Below are positions 3,036 to 16,738 of a stretch of DNA of 23,439 nt, piece after piece. This stretch comes from a virus: the IMG/VR virus record IMGVR_UViG_3300008952_000312, positions 1 through 23,439 of that record; one strand, given 5' to 3'. Every line of letters begins with the position of its first letter. Position 1 is the stretch's first letter. The notes below the pieces were generated by a model. That model saw only the letters and a program-made list of their open reading frames with translations. It did no database searches and had not been told where the DNA came from. Position numbers and translations under genes: made by a program.

Positions 3036-3072
3036 ACCTGGGGGAAAGTCTTAGGCCTTTTTCCCAGGTTTT
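3036..3072 (+). terminator. Intrinsic terminator-like hairpin after the RHH-like gene
   Basis: ACCTGGG (3036-3042) pairs with CCCAGGT (3063-3069), and the stem extends inward through GGAAAG/CTTTTT with wobble pairs. TTTT and further T-rich sequence follow on the plus strand. A second weaker stem (GTTGTTTT with AAAACAGC, about 3003-3028) lies just before it. The hairpin also contains the stop codon region of the minus-strand 52-aa gene. Confidence 0.65.
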
Positions 3073-6051: not shown

Positions 6052-6304
6052 CTTTTTTTCCTTTCTCTAATTTTTGTATTGCTTCATTAATTTTATTTTG
6101 ATTTATAAAGTCTTCTTTTGGTTTTTGATTTTTTTTGTGTAATATATCTAACAGATCACCCATTTTCCCTAAATCAGTGTGTGCCTGGTCTATTATTTTT
6201 TTTGGAGTTTTTGGATTCTGTAAAAACTTTGCAATTATTAAAAGAGTTTCCTTAAATGTAGGAATCTCTTTACCACACGCATAACAACCGTATTTATTTT
6301 CCAT
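6035..6304 (-). CDS. Hypothetical protein with CxxC motif
   Basis: About 89 aa from ATG 6304, which has AGGGAAGG upstream. It opens with MENKYGCYACGKEIP, a CxxC pair at residues 7-10 that might bind metal or form a disulfide. The rest is helical (KETLLIIAKFLQNPKTPKKIIDQAHTDLGKMGDLLDILHKKN) and ends in a lysine/glycine-rich tail. An in-frame ATG at 6334 would add ten residues. It overlaps the preceding gene by 11 bp. No family recognised. Confidence 0.65.
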   Translation of the reverse strand: MENKYGCYACGKEIPTFKETLLIIAKFLQNPKTPKKIIDQAHTDLGKMGDLLDILHKKNQKPKEDFINQNKINEAIQKLEKGKKDGKGN

Positions 6305-6551
6305 TTCCTTCCCTTCTTGTTGCCAATTCATCATACACTAAATCATTAGCTAGTGTGGTATGAATCGGATTTATTTCTTTGTTCTCTTTTGTTGTAATTT
6401 TTAATTCTTTAAGACCATCCTTGTAATCATCAAATCTAAGTGAATCCTCCAATGGAGTACCATCAACATCATGAGAAGGTATCCTGCTTAATTGTTCATC
6501 TACCTGTTCTATGATATTATGCCATAAAGAACTTTTACTTTTTATTTTCAT
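6294..6551 (-). CDS. Hypothetical protein, first gene of a minus-strand operon
   Basis: About 85 aa starting at ATG 6551 (MKIKSKSSLWHNIIEQVDEQ...). This start was chosen over the longer frame from 6635 because a strong promoter (TTGACT, 17 bp, TATATA) ends 6 bp before it, and the extra N-terminus would run antisense into the divergent gene at 6588. No Shine-Dalgarno site fits, so the mRNA is probably leaderless. The protein is acidic in the middle (RFDDYKDGLKELKITTKENKE) and unrecognised. It heads the run of small genes down to 3051. Confidence 0.65.
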   Translation of the reverse strand: MKIKSKSSLWHNIIEQVDEQLSRIPSHDVDGTPLEDSLRFDDYKDGLKELKITTKENKEINPIHTTLANDLVYDELATRREGNGK

Positions 6552-6557
6552 AGTTCT

Positions 6558-6586
6558 TATATATATGGGAGATAATATAAAGTCAA
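6558..6586 (-). promoter_or_regulatory. Sigma70-type promoter for the 6551 gene, predicted leaderless
   Basis: On the minus strand TTGACT (6581-6586) is followed after 17 bp by TATATA (6558-6563), then 6 bp, then the ATG at 6551. The predicted transcription start falls at or next to the ATG. It overlaps completely with the divergent promoter of the 6588 gene. Confidence 0.7.
6576..6581 (+). promoter_or_regulatory. -10 box of the 6588 gene, predicted leaderless
   Basis: TATAAA (6576-6581) ends 6 bp before the ATG at 6588, the same placement as in the other start sites. The -35 position holds only GTTCTT (6553-6558), a poor match, so this promoter may be weak or activator-dependent. Confidence 0.5.
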
Positions 6587-6587
6587 G

Positions 6588-6830
6588 ATGAAATTTGTCC
6601 TGAGCATGATTATTTGTAGCTCTGTTTTTCAGCACTGTTTACCGCCTCATCAGATGCCTGATTTATACAACTCTCACTATGAGTGTATGATAGCCGGATA
6701 CAATGAAGCCATTAAAAAAGCTAAAGAAATAGGGCCTAAAGAAGTTAATAAATATGGTACTCTTATCAAATTCATGTGTATTGATGAAGCCCTGATATTG
6801 CCTCAGCCCAAACCAGGACTAGAATCTTAA
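6588..6830 (+). CDS. Small exported Cys-containing protein
   Basis: An 80-aa protein with a signal-peptide-like start: MK, a hydrophobic stretch FVLSMIICSSVF, and then QHCLPPHQMPDLYNSHYECMIAGYNEAIKKAKEIG. It has cysteines at residues 10, 17, 33 and 68, so disulfides after export are plausible. I recall similar short proteins in marine phages, without known function. It starts 37 bp from the divergent 6551 gene and has no proper Shine-Dalgarno site; a -10 box 6 bp upstream suggests a leaderless transcript. The gene at 6866 has a similar size and Cys pattern. Confidence 0.65.
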   Translation: MKFVLSMIICSSVFQHCLPPHQMPDLYNSHYECMIAGYNEAIKKAKEIGPKEVNKYGTLIKFMCIDEALILPQPKPGLES

Positions 6831-6865
6831 TTGACTTTGTGGCAGAATTTTGGTAGCGCTAGGCT
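6831..6865 (+). promoter_or_regulatory. Candidate promoter of the 6866 gene, predicted leaderless
   Basis: TTGACT (6831-6836) begins exactly 35 bp before the ATG at 6866, matching the spacing at three other genes. The -10 position (6854-6859, TAGCGC) is a poor match. The -35 starts immediately after the stop of the upstream gene. Confidence 0.4.
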
Positions 6866-7126
6866 ATGAAAGAGGCTGTTACTTACTTGCTATTTGGGAG
6901 TATGTGTTGGGCCGTGGAGACTGATTCATTGGGCGAAAAATGCGGTAATATCTATGAATATGAGAAATCACGCCATATAAGCCTTGAGAGCTGTCTTGAT
7001 AGAGCCGAGTACCTTGGTACCCAAATACAGCTAAATCTTAAAAATAGAGGGTCCTACGCCACAGAAATGACTATTAATTGTATCCCCTCAGACTATTCTA
7101 TGAACCACGCAATTCAATGGAAATAG
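6866..7126 (+). CDS. Small Cys-containing, possibly exported protein
   Basis: An 86-aa protein with a short hydrophobic start (MKEAVTYLLFGSMCWAVE) that could be a signal peptide, followed by a soluble part with cysteines at about residues 26, 43 and 72 (KCGNIYEY, ESCLDRAEYL, INCIPSD). Size, Cys spacing and position resemble the preceding gene, so the two may be distant relatives. No Shine-Dalgarno site is seen; a TTGACT box lies 35 bp upstream. Function unknown. Confidence 0.6.
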   Translation: MKEAVTYLLFGSMCWAVETDSLGEKCGNIYEYEKSRHISLESCLDRAEYLGTQIQLNLKNRGSYATEMTINCIPSDYSMNHAIQWK

Positions 7127-7128
7127 CC

Positions 7129-7163
7129 TTGACAAACAACCCTAGCGTGTCTTATATTAACTT
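7129..7163 (+). promoter_or_regulatory. Strong sigma70-type promoter for the 7164 gene, predicted leaderless
   Basis: A perfect TTGACA (7129-7134), 17 bp, TTATAT (7152-7157; TATATT if shifted by one), then 6 bp and the ATG at 7164. Transcription should begin at or one base from the start codon. There is no Shine-Dalgarno site. Confidence 0.75.
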
Positions 7164-7499
7164 ATGAAGCTATATCGCATCCAAGCTTTCGTAGATGGCT
7201 CTTATTTAAATGGGAATGTGGAAGCTCCGGACGATAAAGCGGCTCTGTTAAAGTTTGCAGAGCTTGTTGAACAAGGACACATTAAGGTAGATACCTCAAA
7301 CGAACAAAGTGAAAAAGGGTTCTACTCAAATGGAGTCCGGCTAACGTATGAGGAGTTTACCAATGGCGTTACAGGCGATGGTACAAGAAAAGCTAAACTT
7401 AGAGCACAAATGGGCTCGGTTGGCTACGACTGGTCAACAGGACGAGATGAAAGTGGCCTCATTTCGAATAAAAGACCTGAAGACACAGATAGAAATTAA
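7164..7499 (+). CDS. Small phage protein, long overlap with next gene
   Basis: An open frame of 111 codons beginning MKLYRIQAFVDGSYLNGNVEAPDDKAALLKFAELVEQG, which looks like a compact alpha-beta domain through about residue 70 (LTYEEFTNG). From residue 67 on, the same DNA also encodes the 7363 gene in another frame, and the tail (RKAKLRAQMGSVGYDWSTGRDESGL...) looks less natural. I suspect the ancestral protein ended near residue 70 and the tail is an extension across the neighbour. Function unknown. Its promoter is one of the strongest in the window. Confidence 0.65.
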   Translation: MKLYRIQAFVDGSYLNGNVEAPDDKAALLKFAELVEQGHIKVDTSNEQSEKGFYSNGVRLTYEEFTNGVTGDGTRKAKLRAQMGSVGYDWSTGRDESGLISNKRPEDTDRN

Positions 7500-7536
7500 A
7501 GTGGAACAGGAACAGAAACCTAGTATAGCTAGTTAG
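7363..7536 (+). CDS. Small coiled-coil protein
   Basis: A 57-aa protein from ATG 7363, with GAGGAG about 8 bp upstream; an earlier in-frame ATG at 7348 lacks such a site. The sequence MALQAMVQEKLNLEHKWARLA, then GQQDEMKVASFRIKDLKTQIE reads as a helical hairpin of the kind seen in short phage proteins. It overlaps the 7164 frame by 137 bp and its end overlaps the convergent ParB-like gene by 8 bp. Function unknown. Confidence 0.6.
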   Translation: MALQAMVQEKLNLEHKWARLATTGQQDEMKVASFRIKDLKTQIEIKVEQEQKPSIAS

Positions 7537-7972
7537 ATACAGGGGCTCCTTTAATTCCTTCCTTAAAAAGGGGTAAAACCTTAAGGGTAAACTCGCGCAT
7601 ATCTTTTTCAAACAAGAATGACATATCAAATATATCCGGGTGTTTCTCATCACACTTACCATTTAAAGCTTTTAAAAAATTTTCTTCATCTACATTTTTA
7701 GCTTTATAAACTAACGCATACTGAGCTATACCTTTAAAGTATTTTAATCGTTTAGCTCCATCAATTAATAAATTATTTTCATCAATTACAATAGGAGTAA
7801 GCATTCCATTTTTTTCAAAATGTTTTTTCTCTTCTTCACTTATACTAATTACAACATTAGGAACCATTATAATTTTATCTAAATTAATATGGGCTAATCG
7901 CGTTTTAAATAGTTGATACCAAGGGTGAACCGTGGTCGTTGATCCTTGGGTCGTGGTTAATAATTCAGCCAT
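7529..7972 (-). CDS. ParB-like nuclease/CTPase domain protein
   Basis: A 147-aa protein with a ParB N-terminal-like domain at about residues 28-80: INLDKIIMVPN, ISEEEKKHFEKNGMLTPIVID, then NNLLIDGAKRLKYFK, where GxxR/K equals the usual GxRR-type motif (here DGAKRL). The C-terminal half is acidic and helical, without the ParB HTH or dimer domain, so partitioning is unlikely; phage proteins of this type may nick DNA or modify binding. The ATG at 7972 overlaps the stop of the LAGLIDADG gene by 8 bp, with GAGGTAG upstream as ribosome site. Confidence 0.7.
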   Translation of the reverse strand: MAELLTTTQGSTTTVHPWYQLFKTRLAHINLDKIIMVPNVVISISEEEKKHFEKNGMLTPIVIDENNLLIDGAKRLKYFKGIAQYALVYKAKNVDEENFLKALNGKCDEKHPDIFDMSFLFEKDMREFTLKVLPLFKEGIKGAPVSN

Positions 7973-8282
7973 TAGCTACCTCATGAAATTTAAGTTGTCT
8001 TCTTTTAGATAGGTATGGTAACATTGTTCTTAAAATATCTAAAGCTTTTTCTTTTTTCGTTACTCTCCAGCTATACATTAATTTATGTTTAGGGTCTTTT
8101 GGCTGCCTAGAATAGATTGCTCCTTCTTTAAAAAAAGTGAGAAATCTCAATACTGTATCGCCATCTGACATATCTACACACACTCTTAATTGTCTTGTTT
8201 TATTCTTCCCCTTTGACCATATACCAAAGGTTCCTTCTCCATCAAATACACCAGCTAAATATCCTAATTCATCATTTGGCAT
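7965..8282 (-). CDS. LAGLIDADG homing endonuclease, single motif
   Basis: A 105-aa protein with the LAGLIDADG signature at residues 9-17 (LAGVFDGEG); Glu16 is at the catalytic acidic position. The beta strands after it (TFGIW..., RQLRVCVDMSD) and the end LPYLSKRRQLKFHEVANG fit a single-motif endonuclease, which would act as a homodimer. It is shorter than the best-studied enzymes of about 160 aa but within the range of small phage copies. There is no intron or intein visible: it is free-standing. Its ATG lies inside the last codons of the DNA polymerase gene (11-bp overlap) and its stop overlaps the ParB-like start, so it fits seamlessly into the operon. Confidence 0.8.
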   Translation of the reverse strand: MPNDELGYLAGVFDGEGTFGIWSKGKNKTRQLRVCVDMSDGDTVLRFLTFFKEGAIYSRQPKDPKHKLMYSWRVTKKEKALDILRTMLPYLSKRRQLKFHEVANG

Positions 8283-10140
8283 TTCCCCAGGAATCTCCTA
8301 ATTTTTTATCTACCACAAAGGGTACTTTAAATTCGATACATCCTTCCATTATTTTCTTGATTTCATCTGCCATTGATTCATCCTTCACATTAAAACATAG
8401 TTCATCGTGGATCTGTAAGATAGGTAAGAAGCCTGCGGTTGCACACGCTAACATTGCCTGTTTAGTTTGATCTGCTGATGATCCTTGTATTAATCTATTT
8501 AAGGCCTTATAGGTATAAGCCCTTTTAATATTGTCTCTTCCATACTTAGCAACTGCATTATCAAATGTTTCTGCAGTATGTAAGCCAAAATCTCTAGGTT
8601 CCCACATATTGAACCTACACTTCCGACCTTTTTTAGTTCTAATGATACCCTTCTCACTTGCGGTCTGCATACATCTATCAGATAATAGCTTCACAAATGG
8701 AACCTTATTGTTATATTTTGATATTAGCTGTGTTGCTTCTTCTTTTGATAAGCCGAGAGAATTAGCTAGTTTATTCTTACCCATTCCATACATTAACCCT
8801 AGCCCAATAGTCTTAGCTTGAGATCTTTCAATTCCTACTAAATCCGCTACAGTTTGGTGGAAATCTGCACTAGCTTCATGATAAGCCTGTACTAATTCAT
8901 TACTTCCTTCGTAGCCATCCCCTATAGATGCTGCATAGTGAACCGTCATTCGTGGTTCTTGCTGCGAATAATCAAAACTACCCCACCTGCACCCTTCTTC
9001 TGGAACGAATAAAGATCTAATCATAGGACCAAACTCTTTGTTCCTAGCTGGCACCTGCTGCAGATTAGGATGAGACATTGATAGTCTCCCCGACACAGTT
9101 CCGCCATTATCTGATCTCAGTTGATTTATTTCACCGTGTATTCTTCCATCCACCTGGTATTTCATGATAGAAGATAAGAAGGTGTTATGAAATTTATTTA
9201 TTTCTCGCGCTTTAACAATTAACTTTGCAATTTTATGTTTACAGTTGAACAACCAGTTTTGGGTAAATGATGGCTCGCCTGTTTTTGCAGTCCGTGGATA
9301 CTCTATCTTCAACTTATCAAAAGCTATGGCAATCTGGCGTGCTGCCCAAATGTCTATGTCTGTTCCTGATTCTTTTTTTATTGCCATCAACAATTCTTTT
9401 TCTTGGTGTTGCATTTTTGTTTGTAATTGTTGAGCTAATTCCACTTGTACTCTTACCCCTCTTTGACGCATTTTTATAAGCACTGGTAATAAATTAGATT
9501 CTAATTCCCATACGGTTCCTAAACTTTGTTGAACAATTTCTTTTTTAAGTTGCTGCCACAATAGGTACGTGAGTCGTGCATCTTGTTCAGCATAAAATCC
9601 AACATGCTCCGCAGGTAACTTCCACATCTCGGCTTTGGGATCTACGCCATGATCTTTAGCTGCTAAGATTAAATCTGTTTCTGCTTTAATTTCCCCCAGG
9701 TAATCTTTAGATAAAGCATTTAAAGAATAAGAGAATCTATTTTCATCAACGATAGCTGCAGCTACCATTGTATCAATTATCTCTCCATTAATTTTATAGC
9801 CTTCCTTTTCTAACCAGCCCACATCATACTGAGCATTATGAAAAATTTTAGTACAAGGTAAAGCACACACATCTTTAATATAATTTTGTACTTGTTCCGG
9901 TATCATGTTACCACCACCGAAATGTTTAAAGGGATAGTATCCTTGCCAGCCCTCGGTCGCTACTGCAAAACCTATAATGTTACCATTACCTGTAGCCCAT
10001 CCTGCCCCTAGGCCAGATGCAATGCCATCGTCTCGAGTTTCTAAATCAATTGCTATTTCTTTTGCGTGTGAAAGATCTTTATATTCTGCAGGACAAGACC
10101 AAATATGTTTTTTAAAGTTCATTGATAATTGTAAACTCAT
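8272..10140 (-). CDS. polA: DNA polymerase I family (family A) with 3'-5' exonuclease
   Basis: A 622-aa replicative phage polymerase with proofreading. Exonuclease motifs: Asp32/Glu34 in IDLET, Asn102 and Asp106 in NAQYDVGWL, Tyr183 and Asp187 in YAEQD. Polymerase motif A is SFDYSQQEPR with Asp390; motif B runs Arg439, Lys443, Tyr451 (RSQAKTIGLGLMYG); motif C is HDE at 578-580. All catalytic residues are present and no 5'-3' exonuclease domain exists, as in other phage enzymes. The residue equivalent to E. coli Phe762 (T7 Tyr526) is Leu447. ATG 10140 overlaps the preceding stop in ATGA, indicating coupling. The C-terminus looks complete. Confidence 0.95.
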   Translation of the reverse strand: MSLQLSMNFKKHIWSCPAEYKDLSHAKEIAIDLETRDDGIASGLGAGWATGNGNIIGFAVATEGWQGYYPFKHFGGGNMIPEQVQNYIKDVCALPCTKIFHNAQYDVGWLEKEGYKINGEIIDTMVAAAIVDENRFSYSLNALSKDYLGEIKAETDLILAAKDHGVDPKAEMWKLPAEHVGFYAEQDARLTYLLWQQLKKEIVQQSLGTVWELESNLLPVLIKMRQRGVRVQVELAQQLQTKMQHQEKELLMAIKKESGTDIDIWAARQIAIAFDKLKIEYPRTAKTGEPSFTQNWLFNCKHKIAKLIVKAREINKFHNTFLSSIMKYQVDGRIHGEINQLRSDNGGTVSGRLSMSHPNLQQVPARNKEFGPMIRSLFVPEEGCRWGSFDYSQQEPRMTVHYAASIGDGYEGSNELVQAYHEASADFHQTVADLVGIERSQAKTIGLGLMYGMGKNKLANSLGLSKEEATQLISKYNNKVPFVKLLSDRCMQTASEKGIIRTKKGRKCRFNMWEPRDFGLHTAETFDNAVAKYGRDNIKRAYTYKALNRLIQGSSADQTKQAMLACATAGFLPILQIHDELCFNVKDESMADEIKKIMEGCIEFKVPFVVDKKLGDSWGNAK

Positions 10141-10361
10141 GCAGTTTTTACTTCCGCTGTAGTTTCAATCCATACTCTAGCGCCACAACTTAAAGGTTTA
10201 GTAGGTTTATAAACAACTTTACTAGGTCCTAAAATACTAACTTCATGAGCATACGTATTAGACTTACTGGTTTTAATTGTAATAACAGGGTCGTTAGTGC
10301 CGTGTTTTTTATTAGCTTTAATCTTATGCATATTTACATGTATTCTTTTAAGTAAACTCAT
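10137..10361 (-). CDS. Conserved small phage protein upstream of polA
   Basis: A 74-aa protein: basic N-terminus (MSLLKRIHVNMHKIKANKKHG) and a beta-rich part with PVITIKTSKSNTYAHEVSILGPSKVVYKPTKPLSCGARVWIET. I recall similar proteins next to the DNA polymerase in marine phages; function unknown. Its stop and the polymerase start share ATGA, and its start overlaps the DUF3310 stop by 4 bp, so the three are translated together. Confidence 0.75.
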   Translation of the reverse strand: MSLLKRIHVNMHKIKANKKHGTNDPVITIKTSKSNTYAHEVSILGPSKVVYKPTKPLSCGARVWIETTAEVKTA

Positions 10362-10597
10362 GCGTAGTCTCTCTCTTTAATCATTTCTAAATAATGGATT
10401 GCTTTGTCTATATCTTTTTCTTTTCCTTTCTTTTTATGTCGGCAAATATATTTAATTGCATTCCCCTCGGCGAAGGGAAGGTTATTTTCATTTATGAATT
10501 CTGCTGGCTGAATTTTCATTCCTCTGTAATGATCACCATCGACCTGCTTATTTAAACTATCATAAGTGGTTGATTTAAAGAGGTTTTTGTCCGTCAT
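10358..10597 (-). CDS. DUF3310 family protein
   Basis: A 79-aa protein matching the DUF3310 pattern throughout: VDGDHYRGMKIQPAEFI, ENNLPFAEGNAIKYICRH, then KKKGKEKDIDKAIHYLEMI. The family is common in phages and often lies among replication or nucleotide genes; no firm activity is known to me. The ATG at 10597 overlaps the 3' end of the 54-aa gene by 23 bp. It is followed by the 74-aa protein and DNA polymerase. Confidence 0.85.
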   Translation of the reverse strand: MTDKNLFKSTTYDSLNKQVDGDHYRGMKIQPAEFINENNLPFAEGNAIKYICRHKKKGKEKDIDKAIHYLEMIKERDYA

Positions 10598-10739
10598 TCT
10601 TTTTCTCTTTCCTATTCAATCGGATCTGAGCTTCTTCTGTTATTTTTAATATATCTTTCCACCCAGTTTCTTTTTTTATTTTCTTTATCATATTTTTTAA
10701 GTCTTGATAATACTGTTTATCTGGTTTGTTCTTGGACAT
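10575..10739 (-). CDS. Small charged protein (54 aa)
   Basis: Translation from ATG 10739 gives 54 aa: MSKNKPDKQYYQDLKNMIKK, a helical KETGWKDILKITEEAQIRL segment and a basic end. It fills the only gap in the replication operon, overlapping the helicase 3' end and the DUF3310 start by 23 bp each. This equal overlap at both sides and the uninterrupted frame support it. No family recognised. Confidence 0.55.
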   Translation of the reverse strand: MSKNKPDKQYYQDLKNMIKKIKKETGWKDILKITEEAQIRLNRKEKKNDGQKPL

Positions 10740-12354
10740 AAACTAAATAATCTGCTCCCAATGGATAGTTATATTTGTAATCCGTTGTTAACAAATGAAT
10801 CGTATCTCTAGCACGAGTTGCACCTGTATACCAGACTTTTTTTTCATCAATTTTTTCTTGTTTTGTTTTACTTTTAAAGTTGGATGGAAAATTTCCTTTT
10901 CCATATAAAACCACATGATTGGCTTCTCCACCTTTTACTGAATGAATGGTATCAATAATAATCTGAGGATCTTCATCTAGTTGTTTTTGACCATACCGAC
11001 GAAGAAGTCTTAAAAAATAAATAATTTGTCGTGGAGTAAAATTTCTTCTTAAAATCCACCACCATTGTTTCTGCTGCGCTTCATCAGGTAGATCTAATCC
11101 ACACCATTCTTTTAAATCTTTAAAATTATACTCTTTAAAATCAGGTTCATTAATCCAAAATTTAGTAGCTCTGTAGTCTGGACTTTTAAGTTCTCTAATA
11201 TACTTATACATTTTTTCTGCTTGACGTTTATCTATTTTTTTACCGGAAGATATTCTGGTCCAAGCTTTAATGGCTTCCCATTGAGAAGGATCAAAACATT
11301 TATTATTATCATTATCGGAATAATATAATCCTGCATCTTTGGCTACCATTCTTAATTCATTTACTGTGCTATTAATTCTTCCTAAGATGTACCAAGTTCC
11401 TTCTAATTGAGAAAAAGGAATCTCCTTAAAATTTAAATATCTTTTTACAAATCCTTTTTTATCTACATGTTCGTAATCTTTTTCTTCACTATCTAATATT
11501 CCTCGTCTAATAATTTGAGAGAAGTGATGCACAGCTTCGCCAAACCTTTTTGTTTTTCTTAATTTAACTTTTCGACCTGGGAAGAAAGTAGTGAAATATT
11601 TAGGATCAGCACCATTCCATTTATATATTCCTTGGTCATCATCTCCTGCTAAATAAATTCTATCTATCTTATCTGCCATTTTGTAAATGACAGACCATTG
11701 TAATGGAGTACAATCCTGAGCTTCATCCAGTATTAATATTTTAAGGGGTGGAAAATTTACTTCATCAATTGCTCTTTCAATCATATCATCAAAATCTATA
11801 AAGGATCTTTCCCCTCCAGACTTCTTATAATTTTCATAAGTTTTTATTTTTCTTATAAATACATCTAATGAATCTCTTTTGTATGATTCTCTTTTATAGA
11901 TGTCAGTTGGGTTGGCTAACATATTTCGGGCTTTACTATAAATAGATAAAGACCAATCCTTATAAGTAAAATTATCATCAGCTAATCTTTTATCACTACT
12001 CTTAACAATTTTAGTTTGTAATGCATAATCAATCATACAATCTTTAGGATCAAAAACTTCCTCTTCAAAATATCTTCTGCAATATTTGTGAAGTGTTTTA
12101 AATCTTTCAAAATCGTTAGTGTTGTATTTAGGAAAAGCTTTTAATGCTCTTTCCACAGCGGTGTTAACTGCTTTATTAGTAAAAGAAATAAAAGCTATTT
12201 CATTTGGATTAATTCCTTTTCTTAAATATTTTTTAAGAACGCGTTCGATTAAAGTATGAGTCTTACCTGTACCTGGGGGTCCAAAAATTTTAATCGTTTT
12301 GTGGTATAGGCTTTTTAGATTCTTTAGTTCTGAATTTTCCGGTATGGAATTCAT
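10717..12354 (-). CDS. UvrD/Rep-like SF1 DNA helicase
   Basis: A 545-aa ATP-driven DNA helicase, probably unwinding at the replication fork or in recombination. Motif I is GPPGTGKT at 25-32; motif Ia FISFTNKAV at 55-63; motif II DEAQ at 210-213; motif III GDDDQGIYKWNGAD at 237-250; motif V HSVKGGEANH at 471-480; motif VI VWYTGATRARD at 507-517. All motifs are intact. The protein is shorter than bacterial UvrD (about 720 aa). The ATG at 12354 overlaps the primase gene by 65 bp and no better start precedes the Walker motif. Confidence 0.92.
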   Translation of the reverse strand: MNSIPENSELKNLKSLYHKTIKIFGPPGTGKTHTLIERVLKKYLRKGINPNEIAFISFTNKAVNTAVERALKAFPKYNTNDFERFKTLHKYCRRYFEEEVFDPKDCMIDYALQTKIVKSSDKRLADDNFTYKDWSLSIYSKARNMLANPTDIYKRESYKRDSLDVFIRKIKTYENYKKSGGERSFIDFDDMIERAIDEVNFPPLKILILDEAQDCTPLQWSVIYKMADKIDRIYLAGDDDQGIYKWNGADPKYFTTFFPGRKVKLRKTKRFGEAVHHFSQIIRRGILDSEEKDYEHVDKKGFVKRYLNFKEIPFSQLEGTWYILGRINSTVNELRMVAKDAGLYYSDNDNNKCFDPSQWEAIKAWTRISSGKKIDKRQAEKMYKYIRELKSPDYRATKFWINEPDFKEYNFKDLKEWCGLDLPDEAQQKQWWWILRRNFTPRQIIYFLRLLRRYGQKQLDEDPQIIIDTIHSVKGGEANHVVLYGKGNFPSNFKSKTKQEKIDEKKVWYTGATRARDTIHLLTTDYKYNYPLGADYLVYVQEQTR

Positions 12355-13879
12355 CGTCTAGCTCCGTTGTGGTTTTCTTCTTTGTAGTTTGTTTTATCTT
12401 AACATGGTTTACAAACTCAGGCATGGTTACATACCATACATTTTGTACACCTTCAAAATAGTCATGTCTTTGGCAGCCTAATAATTGAAAGGCTTCCATA
12501 GTATTTTTAAATTTTTTATTTCCTGGACGCGATAACCAATTATTAAGTGTACTTCTTTTGAAATAACACATATTAGTTTTAGAATCTAAAACTACATATC
12601 CATCTTTAAGTTTTTCAAAATCATCTTGTTCAATTGTTTGTTCAAAAAAAGCTTTTAGCACATCATATTTTTCTTCTTCTATAGTATCTGTATATTTAGC
12701 CTGTTCATTTTCAATGGCTCTTTTAGTAAGTTCCTGTAACATTAACTCAAACAAGGGGGGACCTTTTCTTTGTCTTGGAAGAGTCATCCAATATAATCCA
12801 TACTTTAATAATTTAATTCTCCAACATTTCTCATCTCGCATGTCTTCGGGTTCCACCGTGATCCGTTGTTCTTTATAAGTGAAACTAAAATAAATAGTCT
12901 TAGAGTCTCGGGTATAAATAATATCTTCAAACTCATCCATAATGTCAGGAACCTGCGGTCCTATCCCTAGTTTACGAAGTTTACATAAATCTTTATTACA
13001 AATAGGTGCTAACTCATTATGTTTAGGGGGACATTTATAATGATAGCTACTTTGCTTAACTGATTTAGCTACCGCTTTAGCCTCATTAATACTTAAAGGT
13101 TTAAGAAAACATTGTTTATTTCTTTGAATTGCTATCTCTTGGAATGTCTTAAGATCTAAGTTTCCATCTGTTTTTTTATTCTCTAAAATCATTACATTAA
13201 ATAAGAAATTATTACGATTGTTAGATGGCCAAGGTTCTGTTATAAGTTTTTGAACACAAGGAGGATAGTGTTGCCAATCAGCTTCGGGTTCATATGCATT
13301 TGTTTTTAAGTTATACAATTCTTTTACTGTTAGTCTTCGTTGTTCTGCTAGATCTAAGAATGCTCCTATCATCAGTGGATTTGAATTATCATCAAAGGCA
13401 AATTCTACTGTTGCGTTCATTTTGTAGTATGGCATTGTTACTGCTTTATTCATCGGAAATACTTCATTAGCCATAAAGAAAGTATCATTCCATTCATCTA
13501 GTTTTTTACGGACATCATCTACCGATGCCCAATCTTTTAAAAATAAAAATAAGTGTAGTCCTCCAGATTTAGATTTAACTGGAACTAAAGGAAGTTGATA
13601 CTCTTTTATAATATCAACATATTTTTTTTGAGAATAATTTTTATAAGTGCCGGGATCTACATCAATACAACCCCATTTAACTTTATCGTTGTTTTCTGGA
13701 CGGAGGCCCATACGAGTTACTCCGTCCAAATGGGATTGCCAAACCTTTTTCGTCACAGGTTCGTGAACCGTGCGATATTCAGCTTGGCGTTTCCCTCGTT
13801 CATCGACTTCCCCTGTCAGAGAAGTCGTAATGAACTTGTCAGGATCCCCTTCAAAAAGATCTACTAACCGTTGGAGCAT
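12290..13879 (-). CDS. Primase of the archaeo-eukaryotic (prim-pol) type
   Basis: A 529-aa protein whose N-terminal third has AEP primase motifs: DxD at Asp73/Asp75 in GCIDVDPG and the SGGLH motif at 105-109 with His109 (KSKSGGLHLFLFL), followed by VTMPYY at 147-152. Farther on, a Cys/His cluster (HYKCPPKHNELAPICNKDLCKLRKLG, about 287-313) may bind zinc or an iron-sulfur cluster. No DnaB-type helicase domain is fused; the C-terminal 200 aa is unassigned and ends in a basic tail. It would make primers for the downstream polymerase. It starts 2 bp after the preceding stop with no evident Shine-Dalgarno site. Confidence 0.75.
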   Translation of the reverse strand: MLQRLVDLFEGDPDKFITTSLTGEVDERGKRQAEYRTVHEPVTKKVWQSHLDGVTRMGLRPENNDKVKWGCIDVDPGTYKNYSQKKYVDIIKEYQLPLVPVKSKSGGLHLFLFLKDWASVDDVRKKLDEWNDTFFMANEVFPMNKAVTMPYYKMNATVEFAFDDNSNPLMIGAFLDLAEQRRLTVKELYNLKTNAYEPEADWQHYPPCVQKLITEPWPSNNRNNFLFNVMILENKKTDGNLDLKTFQEIAIQRNKQCFLKPLSINEAKAVAKSVKQSSYHYKCPPKHNELAPICNKDLCKLRKLGIGPQVPDIMDEFEDIIYTRDSKTIYFSFTYKEQRITVEPEDMRDEKCWRIKLLKYGLYWMTLPRQRKGPPLFELMLQELTKRAIENEQAKYTDTIEEEKYDVLKAFFEQTIEQDDFEKLKDGYVVLDSKTNMCYFKRSTLNNWLSRPGNKKFKNTMEAFQLLGCQRHDYFEGVQNVWYVTMPEFVNHVKIKQTTKKKTTTELDDEFHTGKFRTKESKKPIPQND

Positions 13880-13881
13880 CT

Positions 13882-14700
13882 TTAGAACGGTGTAGCAGTT
13901 TTCTTAGTTTCCTGATTTATATCCGTTGACGAATAATCAACCTTACCAAAGATATCCATTGCTTTCGCGGTGTTATAAAACTCGCGAGTAATCTCAAGAG
14001 ACTTAGCATGTTTTTCAGTAGTTAAAAAGTCGTTAAACTCTACTACCCATCCATACCAATGGTTTTGAGAATTGGATTCCTTAGTAGTTGTCAACTTATA
14101 AGTAGTCGCCCATGTAGGCGGTCTAAAGAAACCTTTAGCACCTTTCATTCGACGAGTTTGCATCATCGAATTCCAAGTTTTAGATTTCTTCTTTTGAGTT
14201 GACTTCATGCTAATTAATGCCTGCTCTTGAGGAATATAATCTTTATCTAAGATAAAGACAAAATGATTCCCTGTGTCTTCGACATAATTACCATTAGGCA
14301 GCCTATCCTTATTATCATCACCTCTGGAAGTTTCAGACATAATCGCTGGATCGGTATGTATTTTTACAGGTCGTCCAGGACTGTCGCCTCTGTCTTTCCA
14401 CTCATTGAAAGTGTTGATATATAAACAAGGAACTACAATGATACCTGATTTTCCTTTCCACAGATTACCTGTAACTTCATTGTAGATATCACCTTGTTTG
14501 GCTGACTCAATATACTTACCATCATCTTCGTTTAATACCGGAGAGTTGGCATAAAGTATTTTGAGTATTGGAAGCTTAGTGTCTCGAGCCGTTATAAACT
14601 CTTGACCCTCGCCAGCGGATCCTTCCAAATCTATTGCTTGTGGCAAGTTTTGCTTTTTTTTCTCTAGCTCTTTAGCTTGAGCCGTGTTTGCTTGTTGCAT
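13882..14700 (-). CDS. Conserved phage protein, possible ssDNA-binding protein
   Basis: A 272-aa soluble protein: a charged N-terminal helix, then LPILKILYANSPVLNEDDGKYIESAKQGDIYNEVTG and GIIVVPCLYINTFNEWKDRG, a repeated pattern in phage replication modules. The C-terminus is Asp/Thr-rich (KVDYSSTDINQETKKT) rather than strongly acidic. The position directly before primase, helicase and polymerase suggests single-strand DNA binding or another accessory role, but no OB-fold motif can be proven by eye. The start at 14700 has AAGGAGG upstream and overlaps the preceding stop by one base (TAATG). Confidence 0.6.
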   Translation of the reverse strand: MQQANTAQAKELEKKKQNLPQAIDLEGSAGEGQEFITARDTKLPILKILYANSPVLNEDDGKYIESAKQGDIYNEVTGNLWKGKSGIIVVPCLYINTFNEWKDRGDSPGRPVKIHTDPAIMSETSRGDDNKDRLPNGNYVEDTGNHFVFILDKDYIPQEQALISMKSTQKKKSKTWNSMMQTRRMKGAKGFFRPPTWATTYKLTTTKESNSQNHWYGWVVEFNDFLTTEKHAKSLEITREFYNTAKAMDIFGKVDYSSTDINQETKKTATPF

Positions 14701-15245
14701 TATTCCTCCTTCGTGGTTAGTTTAGTTTTACTAGCAACATACACACCGAAAACGTCAGACGGAACGTTCTTACCATTTTGAATTTGTTCTTTTACAAACG
14801 CCTTCAAAGTCATAGGTTCCACTTTTTCGGTTTGTTTAACGGTATGCCCTTTGGATCTCAAGTCTTCAACTAAAGATTTCGCTTCGTTATCTTGATTTCT
14901 TCCAAATGAAAGCATAACATTATTTTTGATTAAATCCCCATGACCATTACTTCGAAGCCAAGTAAAGGCTTCTTCGGTTCTGGATATAGGAATTCTTGCA
15001 GAGTAGAATGGTTTAACTTCTACCTTTGTACCATCAACAAGTTTAATTGCTGTGGTACCTGCTTTGTGCATTAAGTCTGGAATAGTTTGCTCAGAAAGAG
15101 TAGTTTCAGTATTTTTCAACCATTTAAGTTTTTCTTCAAACGCTGATATTTCATTCTGAGTTTCCAATAACTTATTGCAAGACTTTGCGATGTCTATTAT
15201 CATCGCTGTATCAACCTGTATGGTTGATTCTGCCTCTAAGTCCAT
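14700..15245 (-). CDS. Conserved phage protein, first gene of the replication operon
   Basis: A 181-aa protein. A helical N-terminus (NKLLETQNEISAFEEKLKWLKNTETTLSEQ) is followed by IPDLMHKAGTTAIKLVDGTKVEVKPFYSARI, then AFTWLRSNGHGDLIKNNV and EPMTLKAFVKEQI with FGVYV near the end. I recognise this as a recurrent partner of the 272-aa protein in phage genomes, function unknown. ATG 15245 has AAAGGAGG with ideal spacing, unlike its leaderless divergent neighbour. It heads the replication operon. Confidence 0.65.
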   Translation of the reverse strand: MDLEAESTIQVDTAMIIDIAKSCNKLLETQNEISAFEEKLKWLKNTETTLSEQTIPDLMHKAGTTAIKLVDGTKVEVKPFYSARIPISRTEEAFTWLRSNGHGDLIKNNVMLSFGRNQDNEAKSLVEDLRSKGHTVKQTEKVEPMTLKAFVKEQIQNGKNVPSDVFGVYVASKTKLTTKEE

Positions 15246-15265
15246 AAGATCCTCCTTTTCCCATG

Positions 15266-15294
15266 TTCATACAATTTCTGTTTGACGAATGCAA
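15266..15294 (-). promoter_or_regulatory. Candidate promoter of the replication operon
   Basis: On the minus strand TTGCAT (15289-15294) and TATGAA (15266-15271) are separated by 17 bp. The transcript would carry a short leader with the AAAGGAGG site of the 181-aa gene. It overlaps the -35 of the divergent SNF2 promoter, so the two may compete. Confidence 0.5.
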
Positions 15295-15316
15295 GAAAAA
15301 AATATAAATATTTTTT
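15282..15316 (+). promoter_or_regulatory. Sigma70-type promoter of the SNF2 gene, predicted leaderless
   Basis: TTGACG (15282-15287), 17 bp, TAAATA (15305-15310), then six Ts and the ATG at 15317. No Shine-Dalgarno site is present. The geometry is identical to the promoters at 6551 (minus) and 7164. Confidence 0.65.
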
Positions 15317-16738
15317 ATGCAAAAATATGAGTATAAAACTCAACCCTATGAACACCAAAGAAAAGCGTTGAATAATGGAGGACTTCTTAAAAACTATGCT
15401 TATTTTATGGAAATGGGTACTGGTAAAACAAAAGTTGCAATAGATAATGTAGCTTATTTATGGCAAAATAAAGAAATTAAAGAATGTGTAGTTATAGCGC
15501 CAAACTCTGTTTATACCAATTGGGTTCAAGAAATAGTAAACCATTGTCCTCTTCCTACTAATATTTGGTGTTGGAAAATAAGTAAAGATAAAGAATTAAT
15601 TAAATCCGATAAAGAAAATAAACTTTTATTTATTTTAATGAATGTTGAAGCTTTATCTCACAAGTCTGGACAAAAATGGTTGCAAAATCGAATCAATCTA
15701 AATGGAAAATCAATGATGATGATTATTGACGAAAGCACAACCATAAAAAACCCAACAGCACTACGCACCAAAGCAATCTGTAAATTAGGTACAGCGGTAA
15801 AATACCGAAGAATATTAACGGGATCGCCAATAACAAAGTCTCCATTAGACCTTTATACTCAATGTGCCTTTTTAAGTAAAGCATTATTAGGGTTTGAATC
15901 TTTCTATACATTCAGAGCTAGATATGCTGTGATGCACCAAATCCAAATGGGAGGTAATCAAATATTAGTACCCAAATATTATACTAACTTAGATGAATTG
16001 GAGTGGAAATTAAAATCATTTTCTTACAGAGTTAAAAAAGATGAGTGCTTAGACTTACCACCTAAGTTGTATCAACAACGACAAGTAAATTTATCTACAG
16101 AACAAGCAACTATTTATAATCGTTTAAAAAAAAGAGCTAGAGCACTGATTGAGGATAAAACGGTTAGCTTTAATAATAAACTTACGGAAATATTAAGGCT
16201 ACACCAGGTCTGCCAAGGGTTTTTGAAAACAGATGAGGGGACTATTCATGAATTTAAAAATAATCCTAAATTAAAAGAATTAATGGCTCTTCTCGAAGAA
16301 AGTGATGGAAAGGTTATTATATGGGCTAACTATGTGTATAATATAAAACAAATTAAAGCAGCCCTGGAGGAACGCTATGGAAAAAATTCAGTGGTTTCAA
16401 TATTCGGAGAAGTTGATGTTGAAGGTCGTAAAGATGCTGTTAACAACTTTCAACTTAATGATAGATGCCGTTTCCTTGTTGGTAATCCTGCTACTGGTGG
16501 CTATGGTCTTACCCTTACTGCTGCTCGGTATGTTGTATATTTCAGTAATTCTTACAATCTTGAAGTTCGGTGGCAAAGTGAAGACCGTGCGCACCGAATT
16601 GGTCAGAAGGATAAAGTTACTTATATCGATTTAATGGTACCCGAATCATTAGATGTGATGATTATGTCTGCTCTTGATAGAAAAATTAAATTAAGTGCTC
16701 AAACTCTTGGAGAAGAAGCAAAGCGATTTTTGTCGTAA
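15317..16738 (+). CDS. SNF2-type SF2 helicase/translocase
   Basis: A 473-aa ATP-driven DNA translocase. Motif I is MGTGKT at 33-38 after a Q-motif-like YEHQRKAL; motif II is DEST at 138-141; motif III TGSP at 168-171; the second RecA lobe has KVIIWANYVYNIKQI, GNPATGGYGLTLTAA and motif VI QSEDRAHRIGQ at 420-430, the SNF2 hallmark. No extra DNA-binding or nuclease domain is fused. It is the only large plus-strand gene, standing divergent from the replication operon with its own promoter. It may remodel protein-DNA complexes in replication or recombination or take part in early takeover. Confidence 0.93.
   Translation: MQKYEYKTQPYEHQRKALNNGGLLKNYAYFMEMGTGKTKVAIDNVAYLWQNKEIKECVVIAPNSVYTNWVQEIVNHCPLPTNIWCWKISKDKELIKSDKENKLLFILMNVEALSHKSGQKWLQNRINLNGKSMMMIIDESTTIKNPTALRTKAICKLGTAVKYRRILTGSPITKSPLDLYTQCAFLSKALLGFESFYTFRARYAVMHQIQMGGNQILVPKYYTNLDELEWKLKSFSYRVKKDECLDLPPKLYQQRQVNLSTEQATIYNRLKKRARALIEDKTVSFNNKLTEILRLHQVCQGFLKTDEGTIHEFKNNPKLKELMALLEESDGKVIIWANYVYNIKQIKAALEERYGKNSVVSIFGEVDVEGRKDAVNNFQLNDRCRFLVGNPATGGYGLTLTAARYVVYFSNSYNLEVRWQSEDRAHRIGQKDKVTYIDLMVPESLDVMIMSALDRKIKLSAQTLGEEAKRFLS

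Follow-up and report, generated by a model that had tools for sequence, protein, structure and literature searches.

The promoter signal in the window

The locus raises the question of whether a few phage genes are transcribed from promoters so close to the start codon that their mRNAs begin at or near the AUG. The window, i.e. the whole stretch of DNA analysed, comprises 23,439 bases, the length of the source record. Its DNA polymerase was 79% identical over the full protein length to the counterpart in Pelagibacter phage HTVC023P, and gene 6588 belongs to phrog_19893 (4.7e-15), a family with matches in ten pelagiphage records. Judged by its proteins the window belongs to a pelagiphage (SAR11 phage) of the HTVC023P type, and because of these resemblances the host is very probably SAR11. 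Pelagiphages are among the most abundant marine viruses. At positions 300-500 of the window, GC-richer repeats (cgaggcgag, caggttcaggttcagg) stand out from the AT-rich remainder, and a strong terminator-like hairpin with a T-rich tail (3036-3069) directly follows the Shine-Dalgarno-led gene 2752.

The original prediction placed a TTGAC box exactly 35 nt before the ATG of genes 6551, 6866, 7164 and 15317, and this was borne out by direct reading of the DNA. The same applied to the -10 boxes TATATA, TTATAT and TAAATA at 6551, 7164 and 15317, with N17 between the boxes and N6 to the ATG, and to the poor -10 at 6866 (TAGCGC) and the poor -35 at 6588 (GTTCTT). TTGAC occurs 27 times in the window, counting both strands (46.9 kb). 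Over 40 starts, the analyst's own list of plausible genes, four TTGAC words were seen exactly at -35 against 0.023 expected (binomial P 9.9e-9; 4e-7 after correction over 41 offsets), and the 50 nt preceding each of these starts contained no further TTGAC. A scan of the whole region gave 76 promoter-like pairs against 73 expected. As this is no excess, what stands out is where the promoters lie with respect to the start codons and not how many there are. The positional observation in the window is real and was confirmed. The predicted promoters, and a leadered gene for contrast, are as follows.

7129-7158, plus strand: predicted promoter of gene 7164; TTGACA (7129-7134), spacer of 18, TATATT (7153-7158), then 5 nt and ATG
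6558-6586, minus strand: predicted promoter of gene 6551; TTGACT (6586-6581), spacer of 17, TATATA (6563-6558), then 6 nt and ATG
15282-15310, plus strand: predicted promoter of the SNF2 gene 15317; TTGACG (15282-15287), spacer of 17, TAAATA (15305-15310), then 6 nt and ATG
14700-15245, minus strand: leadered DUF7307 (Pam3 gp33-like) gene (PF23984, 5e-32), transcribed divergently from SNF2; Shine-Dalgarno match of 7 nt

TTGACA-like and TATAAT-like hexamers at the sigma70-type spacing of 16-18 bp were found at 7164, 6551 and 15317. The 7164 promoter matched 11 of 12 consensus bases and was the best match in the promoter scan, and those of 6551 and 15317 matched 9 and 8 of 12. The 7164 region can also be parsed as TTGACA-N17-TTATAT-N6-ATG; TATATT with the 18-bp spacer is the better -10. 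A -10 box about 10-12 nt before the start codon, as expected of leaderless genes, was found at 7164, 6551, 15317 and in their families, and not at 6866. The start codon is AUG in all three window genes. The longest match to AAGGAGG upstream was 0-3 nt at 6551, 6588, 6866, 7164 and 15317 compared with 6-7 nt at 2752, 15245, 14700 and 16871, in agreement with the earlier claim that the five starts have no usable Shine-Dalgarno site while 2752, 15245 and 16871 do.

Conservation of the geometry in relatives

Relatives were collected by scanning IMG/VR with the 6588 and SNF2 proteins, and their genes were predicted with a simple purpose-built caller based on codons. In a set of 127 relatives, the window and HTVC023P, the distance from TTGAC to an in-frame ATG peaked at 34-37 nt (14, 28, 13 and 11 cases, with the maximum at 35). 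Wrong-frame ATGs in the same set gave 0-4 counts per offset and no TTGAC peak. When the -35 and -10 boxes were scored jointly and the proteins were clustered, the three largest families were SNF2 (30 members), 7164 (27) and 6551 (18).

Family members were then defined by profile search, starts were assigned by alignment, and the upstream regions were made non-redundant at 80%. The geometry was counted where a TTG at -35, at least 8 of 12 matches and a box at 33-38 nt were found, a rule fixed after the first data had been seen. It was present in 15 of 18 non-redundant upstream regions of the 7164 family (dinucleotide-shuffle background 2.4%, P 5e-22), in 12 of 14 of the 6551 family (background 3.4%, P 2e-16) and in 14 of 35 of the SNF2 family (background 3.3%, P 3e-12), the members still being not fully independent. 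Loci fetched later had the geometry in 3 of 3 cases for 7164 (P 5e-6) and 7 of 13 for 6551 (P 7e-9). The six later 6551 loci that lacked it belonged mostly to a distinct subfamily (...LKSNC.EWRE...), a split made post hoc. The pairwise identity of the upstream DNA averaged 0.38-0.42 and fell as low as 0.17. Because the mean is only about 0.4, common ancestry of the entire upstream region does not explain why the boxes were retained. Of the 41 non-redundant geometry-bearing members, 40 start with ATG. The gap between the -10 box and the start was 5-9 nt across relatives, and in the 7164 family 11 of the 15 cases had a gap of 5 nt.

The original prediction had staked itself on the spacing being enriched among homologues. 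This was so for 6551, 7164 and 15317, while 6588 showed no enrichment (0/28) and 6866 was at background (2/14). Two divergent gene pairs in relatives (L082, 1818-1871; L085, 1602-1655), with 52 bp between the genes, had overlapping promoters, both with the leaderless geometry.

Genes 6588 and 6866

6588-6830, plus strand: gene 6588 (phrog_19893), with a hydrophobic amino terminus; no support for leaderless transcription
6576-6581, plus strand: TATAAA ending 6 nt before the 6588 ATG; GTTCTT in the -35 place, hence no -35
6866-7126, plus strand: gene 6866, 86 aa; leaderless transcription unsupported in the window
6831-6836, plus strand: TTGACT exactly at -35 of gene 6866, without a matching -10 (TAGCGC); function doubtful

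None of the 28 non-redundant relatives of 6588 had the geometry, and the count for 6866 (P 0.05) was at background level. On these homologue counts both genes were rejected as members of the leaderless class. In many relatives of 6588 the sequence before the ATG, TTGTCAAG, serves as the -35 box for the gene on the divergent side, which is itself Shine-Dalgarno-led. HTVC023P gp10, which was assigned to the 6866 family, does carry the geometry (TTGCAA-N16-TATAAA-N5-ATG). The class had been described as small exported proteins plus SNF2. This description failed, as the hydrophobic amino termini belong to 6588 and 6866, the very pair that dropped out, and the proteins of 6551 and 7164 are small and have no evident signal peptide.

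Genes 7164 and 6551

7164-7499, plus strand: gene 7164, 111 aa (MKLYRIQAF...), a family without known function, homologue of HTVC023P gp09; predicted leaderless
6294-6551, minus strand: gene 6551, 85-aa helical protein (MKIKSKSSLWHNIIEQVDEQLSRIP...), homologue of HTVC023P gp11; predicted leaderless

Six nt ahead of the gene 7164 start codon lies an in-frame stop, and no other start codon is available upstream. In its family M1 and Y4 are invariant and R5 is nearly so. In codons 2-8 of the 7164 and 6551 families synonymous and non-synonymous changes were about equal in number, and the amino-terminal codons of the 7164 family are under purifying selection. Alternative upstream start codons were absent in 34 of 34 geometry-bearing members of the 7164 family, in 23 of 29 of the 6551 family and in 38 of 50 of the SNF2 family. 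Given the invariant M1 and Y4 and the pattern in codons 2-8, translation very probably starts at the assigned codons. Pfam and PHROGs gave no convincing family for either protein, and fold searches found no match at E<=0.001 for 7164 (poor model, pLDDT 64) and none in the PDB at the same cut-off for 6551 (pLDDT 85). Both genes lie in a counter-oriented cassette at 6.3-7.5 kb with tightly packed divergent genes. The start codons of 6551 and 6588 are separated by 36 bp, and the -35 box of 6551 abuts the 6588 start codon.

The SNF2 gene

15317-16738, plus strand: SNF2-family helicase gene (PF00176 3.2e-25, PF00271 5.2e-13, phrog_62 1.6e-114); predicted leaderless
15282-15294, plus strand: TTG-N7-CAA half-palindrome (TTGACGAATGCAA), overlapping the SNF2 -35 box

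The geometry was retained in SNF2 homologues of 54-82% protein identity, with promoters that differ widely in sequence (e.g. TTGCAA-N17-TAAAAA-N6-GTG and TTGATT-N17-TAAAAA-N6-ATG). It was present where SNF2 is the first gene and is directed away from its DUF7307 neighbour. It was missing where the gene is operon-internal or Shine-Dalgarno-led, and other relatives fell below the score cut-off. Several SNF2 relatives, a minority, start with GTG, which works poorly as the start of leaderless mRNAs in E. coli. The half-palindrome recurs at the equivalent place in many SNF2 promoters, e.g. TTGCAATATGCAA, TTGATTAATGCAA and TTGACTAAGTCAA, and its role is putative. In L072 and L074 a short conserved reading frame (ATGGGACAACTCATTAGAG...GAATGA) lies just upstream, its end overlapping the SNF2 start codon.

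Cultured pelagiphages and the SAR11 host

HTVC023P (MN698239.1) had the geometry at gp09 (34 nt), gp10 (33 nt) and gp11 (36 nt), in each case at the deposited annotated start, and its SNF2 gene, near record position 60808, had a below-threshold version. Primary transcript ends are predicted in this record, to within about 2 nt, at 7641(-), 7895(-), 7972(+) and 60808(-). HTVC027P (MN698241.1) had a weaker geometry at gp31 and gp35 and possibly at gp30; the record positions with this weaker form are 15944(-), 15983(+) and 18219(+). The start codons of the divergent genes gp30 and gp31 of HTVC027P are 38 bp apart (L317, 15944-15983), and the TTGAT boxes at -35/-36 of both overlap face to face; gp30 has been named ArfA and is highly expressed at 3 h (PMC12753301). 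The geometry was rare or absent in HTVC019P, HTVC103P, HTVC106P, HTVC203P and 023Pt_psg01, and with little or none in these five the idea that it is a general property of pelagiphages was rejected. The strict pattern TTGAC-N18-TANNNT-N6-ATG gave no match in 12 phages; it is too rigid, since spacers and gaps vary.

SAR11 DNA (1.18 Mb from three genomes, 1188 genes) had no TTGAC peak at -35, and in six SAR11 genomes the near-consensus pattern was no commoner than a reversed control. A degenerate-promoter score gave 14 hits at the leaderless position against 4.8 expected, an excess that disappeared at a stricter cut-off. With no TTGAC peak and only this weak degenerate signal, a host origin of the architecture was rejected. 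Leaderless promoters close to the consensus look characteristic of the HTVC023P-type phage lineage and not of the host. Shine-Dalgarno-like sites preceded about 9% of SAR11 starts (host loci L258-L316) but about 42% of those in pelagiphages (viral loci L002-L129 and others), so that host and phage differ markedly in their initiation signals. At such a low frequency SAR11 must often initiate without Shine-Dalgarno.

Interpretation of the conserved geometry

For genes 7164, 6551 and 15317 it can be said with good confidence, from the comparison of homologues, that they have sigma70-type promoters which would produce leaderless mRNAs. The promoters would most likely be read by the host RNA polymerase with the SAR11 housekeeping sigma factor. 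As only about 5-9 nt separate the -10 box from the start codon, the 5' end of the transcript is predicted at the AUG or a few bases away, and the ribosome would initiate on this 5'-terminal AUG without a Shine-Dalgarno site. This reading is supported by a promoter-like sequence kept at a fixed distance in diverged homologues of three unrelated families, by the lack of Shine-Dalgarno sites and by protein conservation from the first codon on. Leaderless transcripts, which the original prediction expected at all five genes, are thus strongly predicted by conserved geometry at three and lose their support at 6588 and 6866. Counting against the leaderless reading are the weak -10 boxes (TAAATA, TATATA, TAAAAA) and the 21 of 35 SNF2 relatives without the geometry, together with the several GTG starts, the six later 6551 loci that lacked it and its scarcity in the other pelagiphages examined.

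The same promoters could instead give a very short leader of about 1-8 nt, with ordinary 30S initiation that needs no Shine-Dalgarno site. The 5-9 nt range of the gap among relatives is in its favour, gaps of 7-9 nt behind the -10 box leaving room for 1-3 nt of leader as well, and so is the scarcity of Shine-Dalgarno-like sites at SAR11 starts. However, the 5-nt gap in most of the 7164 cases would put +1 of a normal sigma70 promoter at or adjoining the AUG, and the almost exclusive use of ATG also speaks against a short leader, which is therefore considered unlikely, although it retains a modest share of the probability. Quite improbable is an arrangement in which the TTGAC boxes are operators of a phage regulator and the true promoters lie further upstream. 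The half-palindrome over the SNF2 -35 box and the recurrence of TTGAC/GTCAA pairs in divergent regions would fit operators, but the boxes of 7164 and 6551 have no such palindrome, in three unrelated families the box is paired with a -10 at a distance of 16-18 bp, and an operator lying over a promoter would be compatible with leaderless transcription.

Coincidental placement of TTGAC words before start codons is a reasonable explanation for 6866 and for the partial match at 6588. For 6551, 7164 and 15317 it is already refuted by the corrected P value in the window and the independent conservation in relatives, and its overall probability is close to nil. Misassigned starts, with translation from a downstream codon behind a normal leader, are just as hard to believe, as M1 and Y4 do not vary within the 7164 family, codons 2-8 are under purifying selection and most members have no upstream start.

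If the three genes are leaderless, a regulatory benefit of the set may be supposed. Compaction is one possible gain for the phage, given the short distance between the 6551 and 6588 start codons. SAR11 cells in which rRNA is undetectable during infection have been described, HTVC027P infections among them (PMC11066056). That HTVC023P-type pelagiphages maintain a dedicated leaderless set which can still be translated after infection has changed the ribosomes or initiation factors of the SAR11 cell, or deprived it of them, is conceivable and rather improbable.

Comparison with known leaderless systems

The predicted arrangement resembles that of lambda cI transcribed from PRM and of other bacterial leaderless mRNAs (PMC9031893), in which the promoter sets the transcript start at or next to the AUG and there is no Shine-Dalgarno site. 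Here, however, genes and host differ, the transcript starts are predicted, and no cI-like activator was shown. The TA-led bacterial genes, defined by a -10-like signal lying about 10-12 nt upstream of the start codon (PMC3160421), have the same computational signature. That survey dealt with cellular genomes and its text does not include Pelagibacter, whereas a -35 box and conservation within families are added here. Thermus phage phiYS40 likewise has a gene set on leaderless transcripts, as is predicted here. Most of its middle and late genes are leaderless and IF2/IF3 levels shift during infection (PMC3594737), whereas in the present phages only a few genes are predicted to be leaderless and the geometry occurs in a minority of genes. 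Alphaproteobacteria, the class of SAR11, make leaderless transcripts, e.g. 171 in Sinorhizobium meliloti (PMC3616915), although the sampled SAR11 genomes show at most a weak leaderless signal. A literature search, in which coverage of subscription journals was thin, found no leaderless genes reported for pelagiphages or SAR11. Three papers contained both the terms leaderless and pelagiphage, the former solely within a cited title. This known type of expression is apparently unreported in pelagiphages.

Genes 7164, 6551 and 15317 and their homologues probably form a conserved leaderless set, as far as sequence can tell. Such a set would fix the starts of these genes and supplies predicted positions of promoters and transcript starts in the cultured phage HTVC023P, so that existing cultures could be used to test the predicted leaderless phage genes. 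The 7164 and 6551 families are highlighted as two conserved, unnamed families for functional work; for many pelagiphage genes no function is known, as is the case for every early gene of HTVC027P (PMC12753301). The set would also provide a system for studying leaderless translation in a streamlined host that is sparing in Shine-Dalgarno sites.
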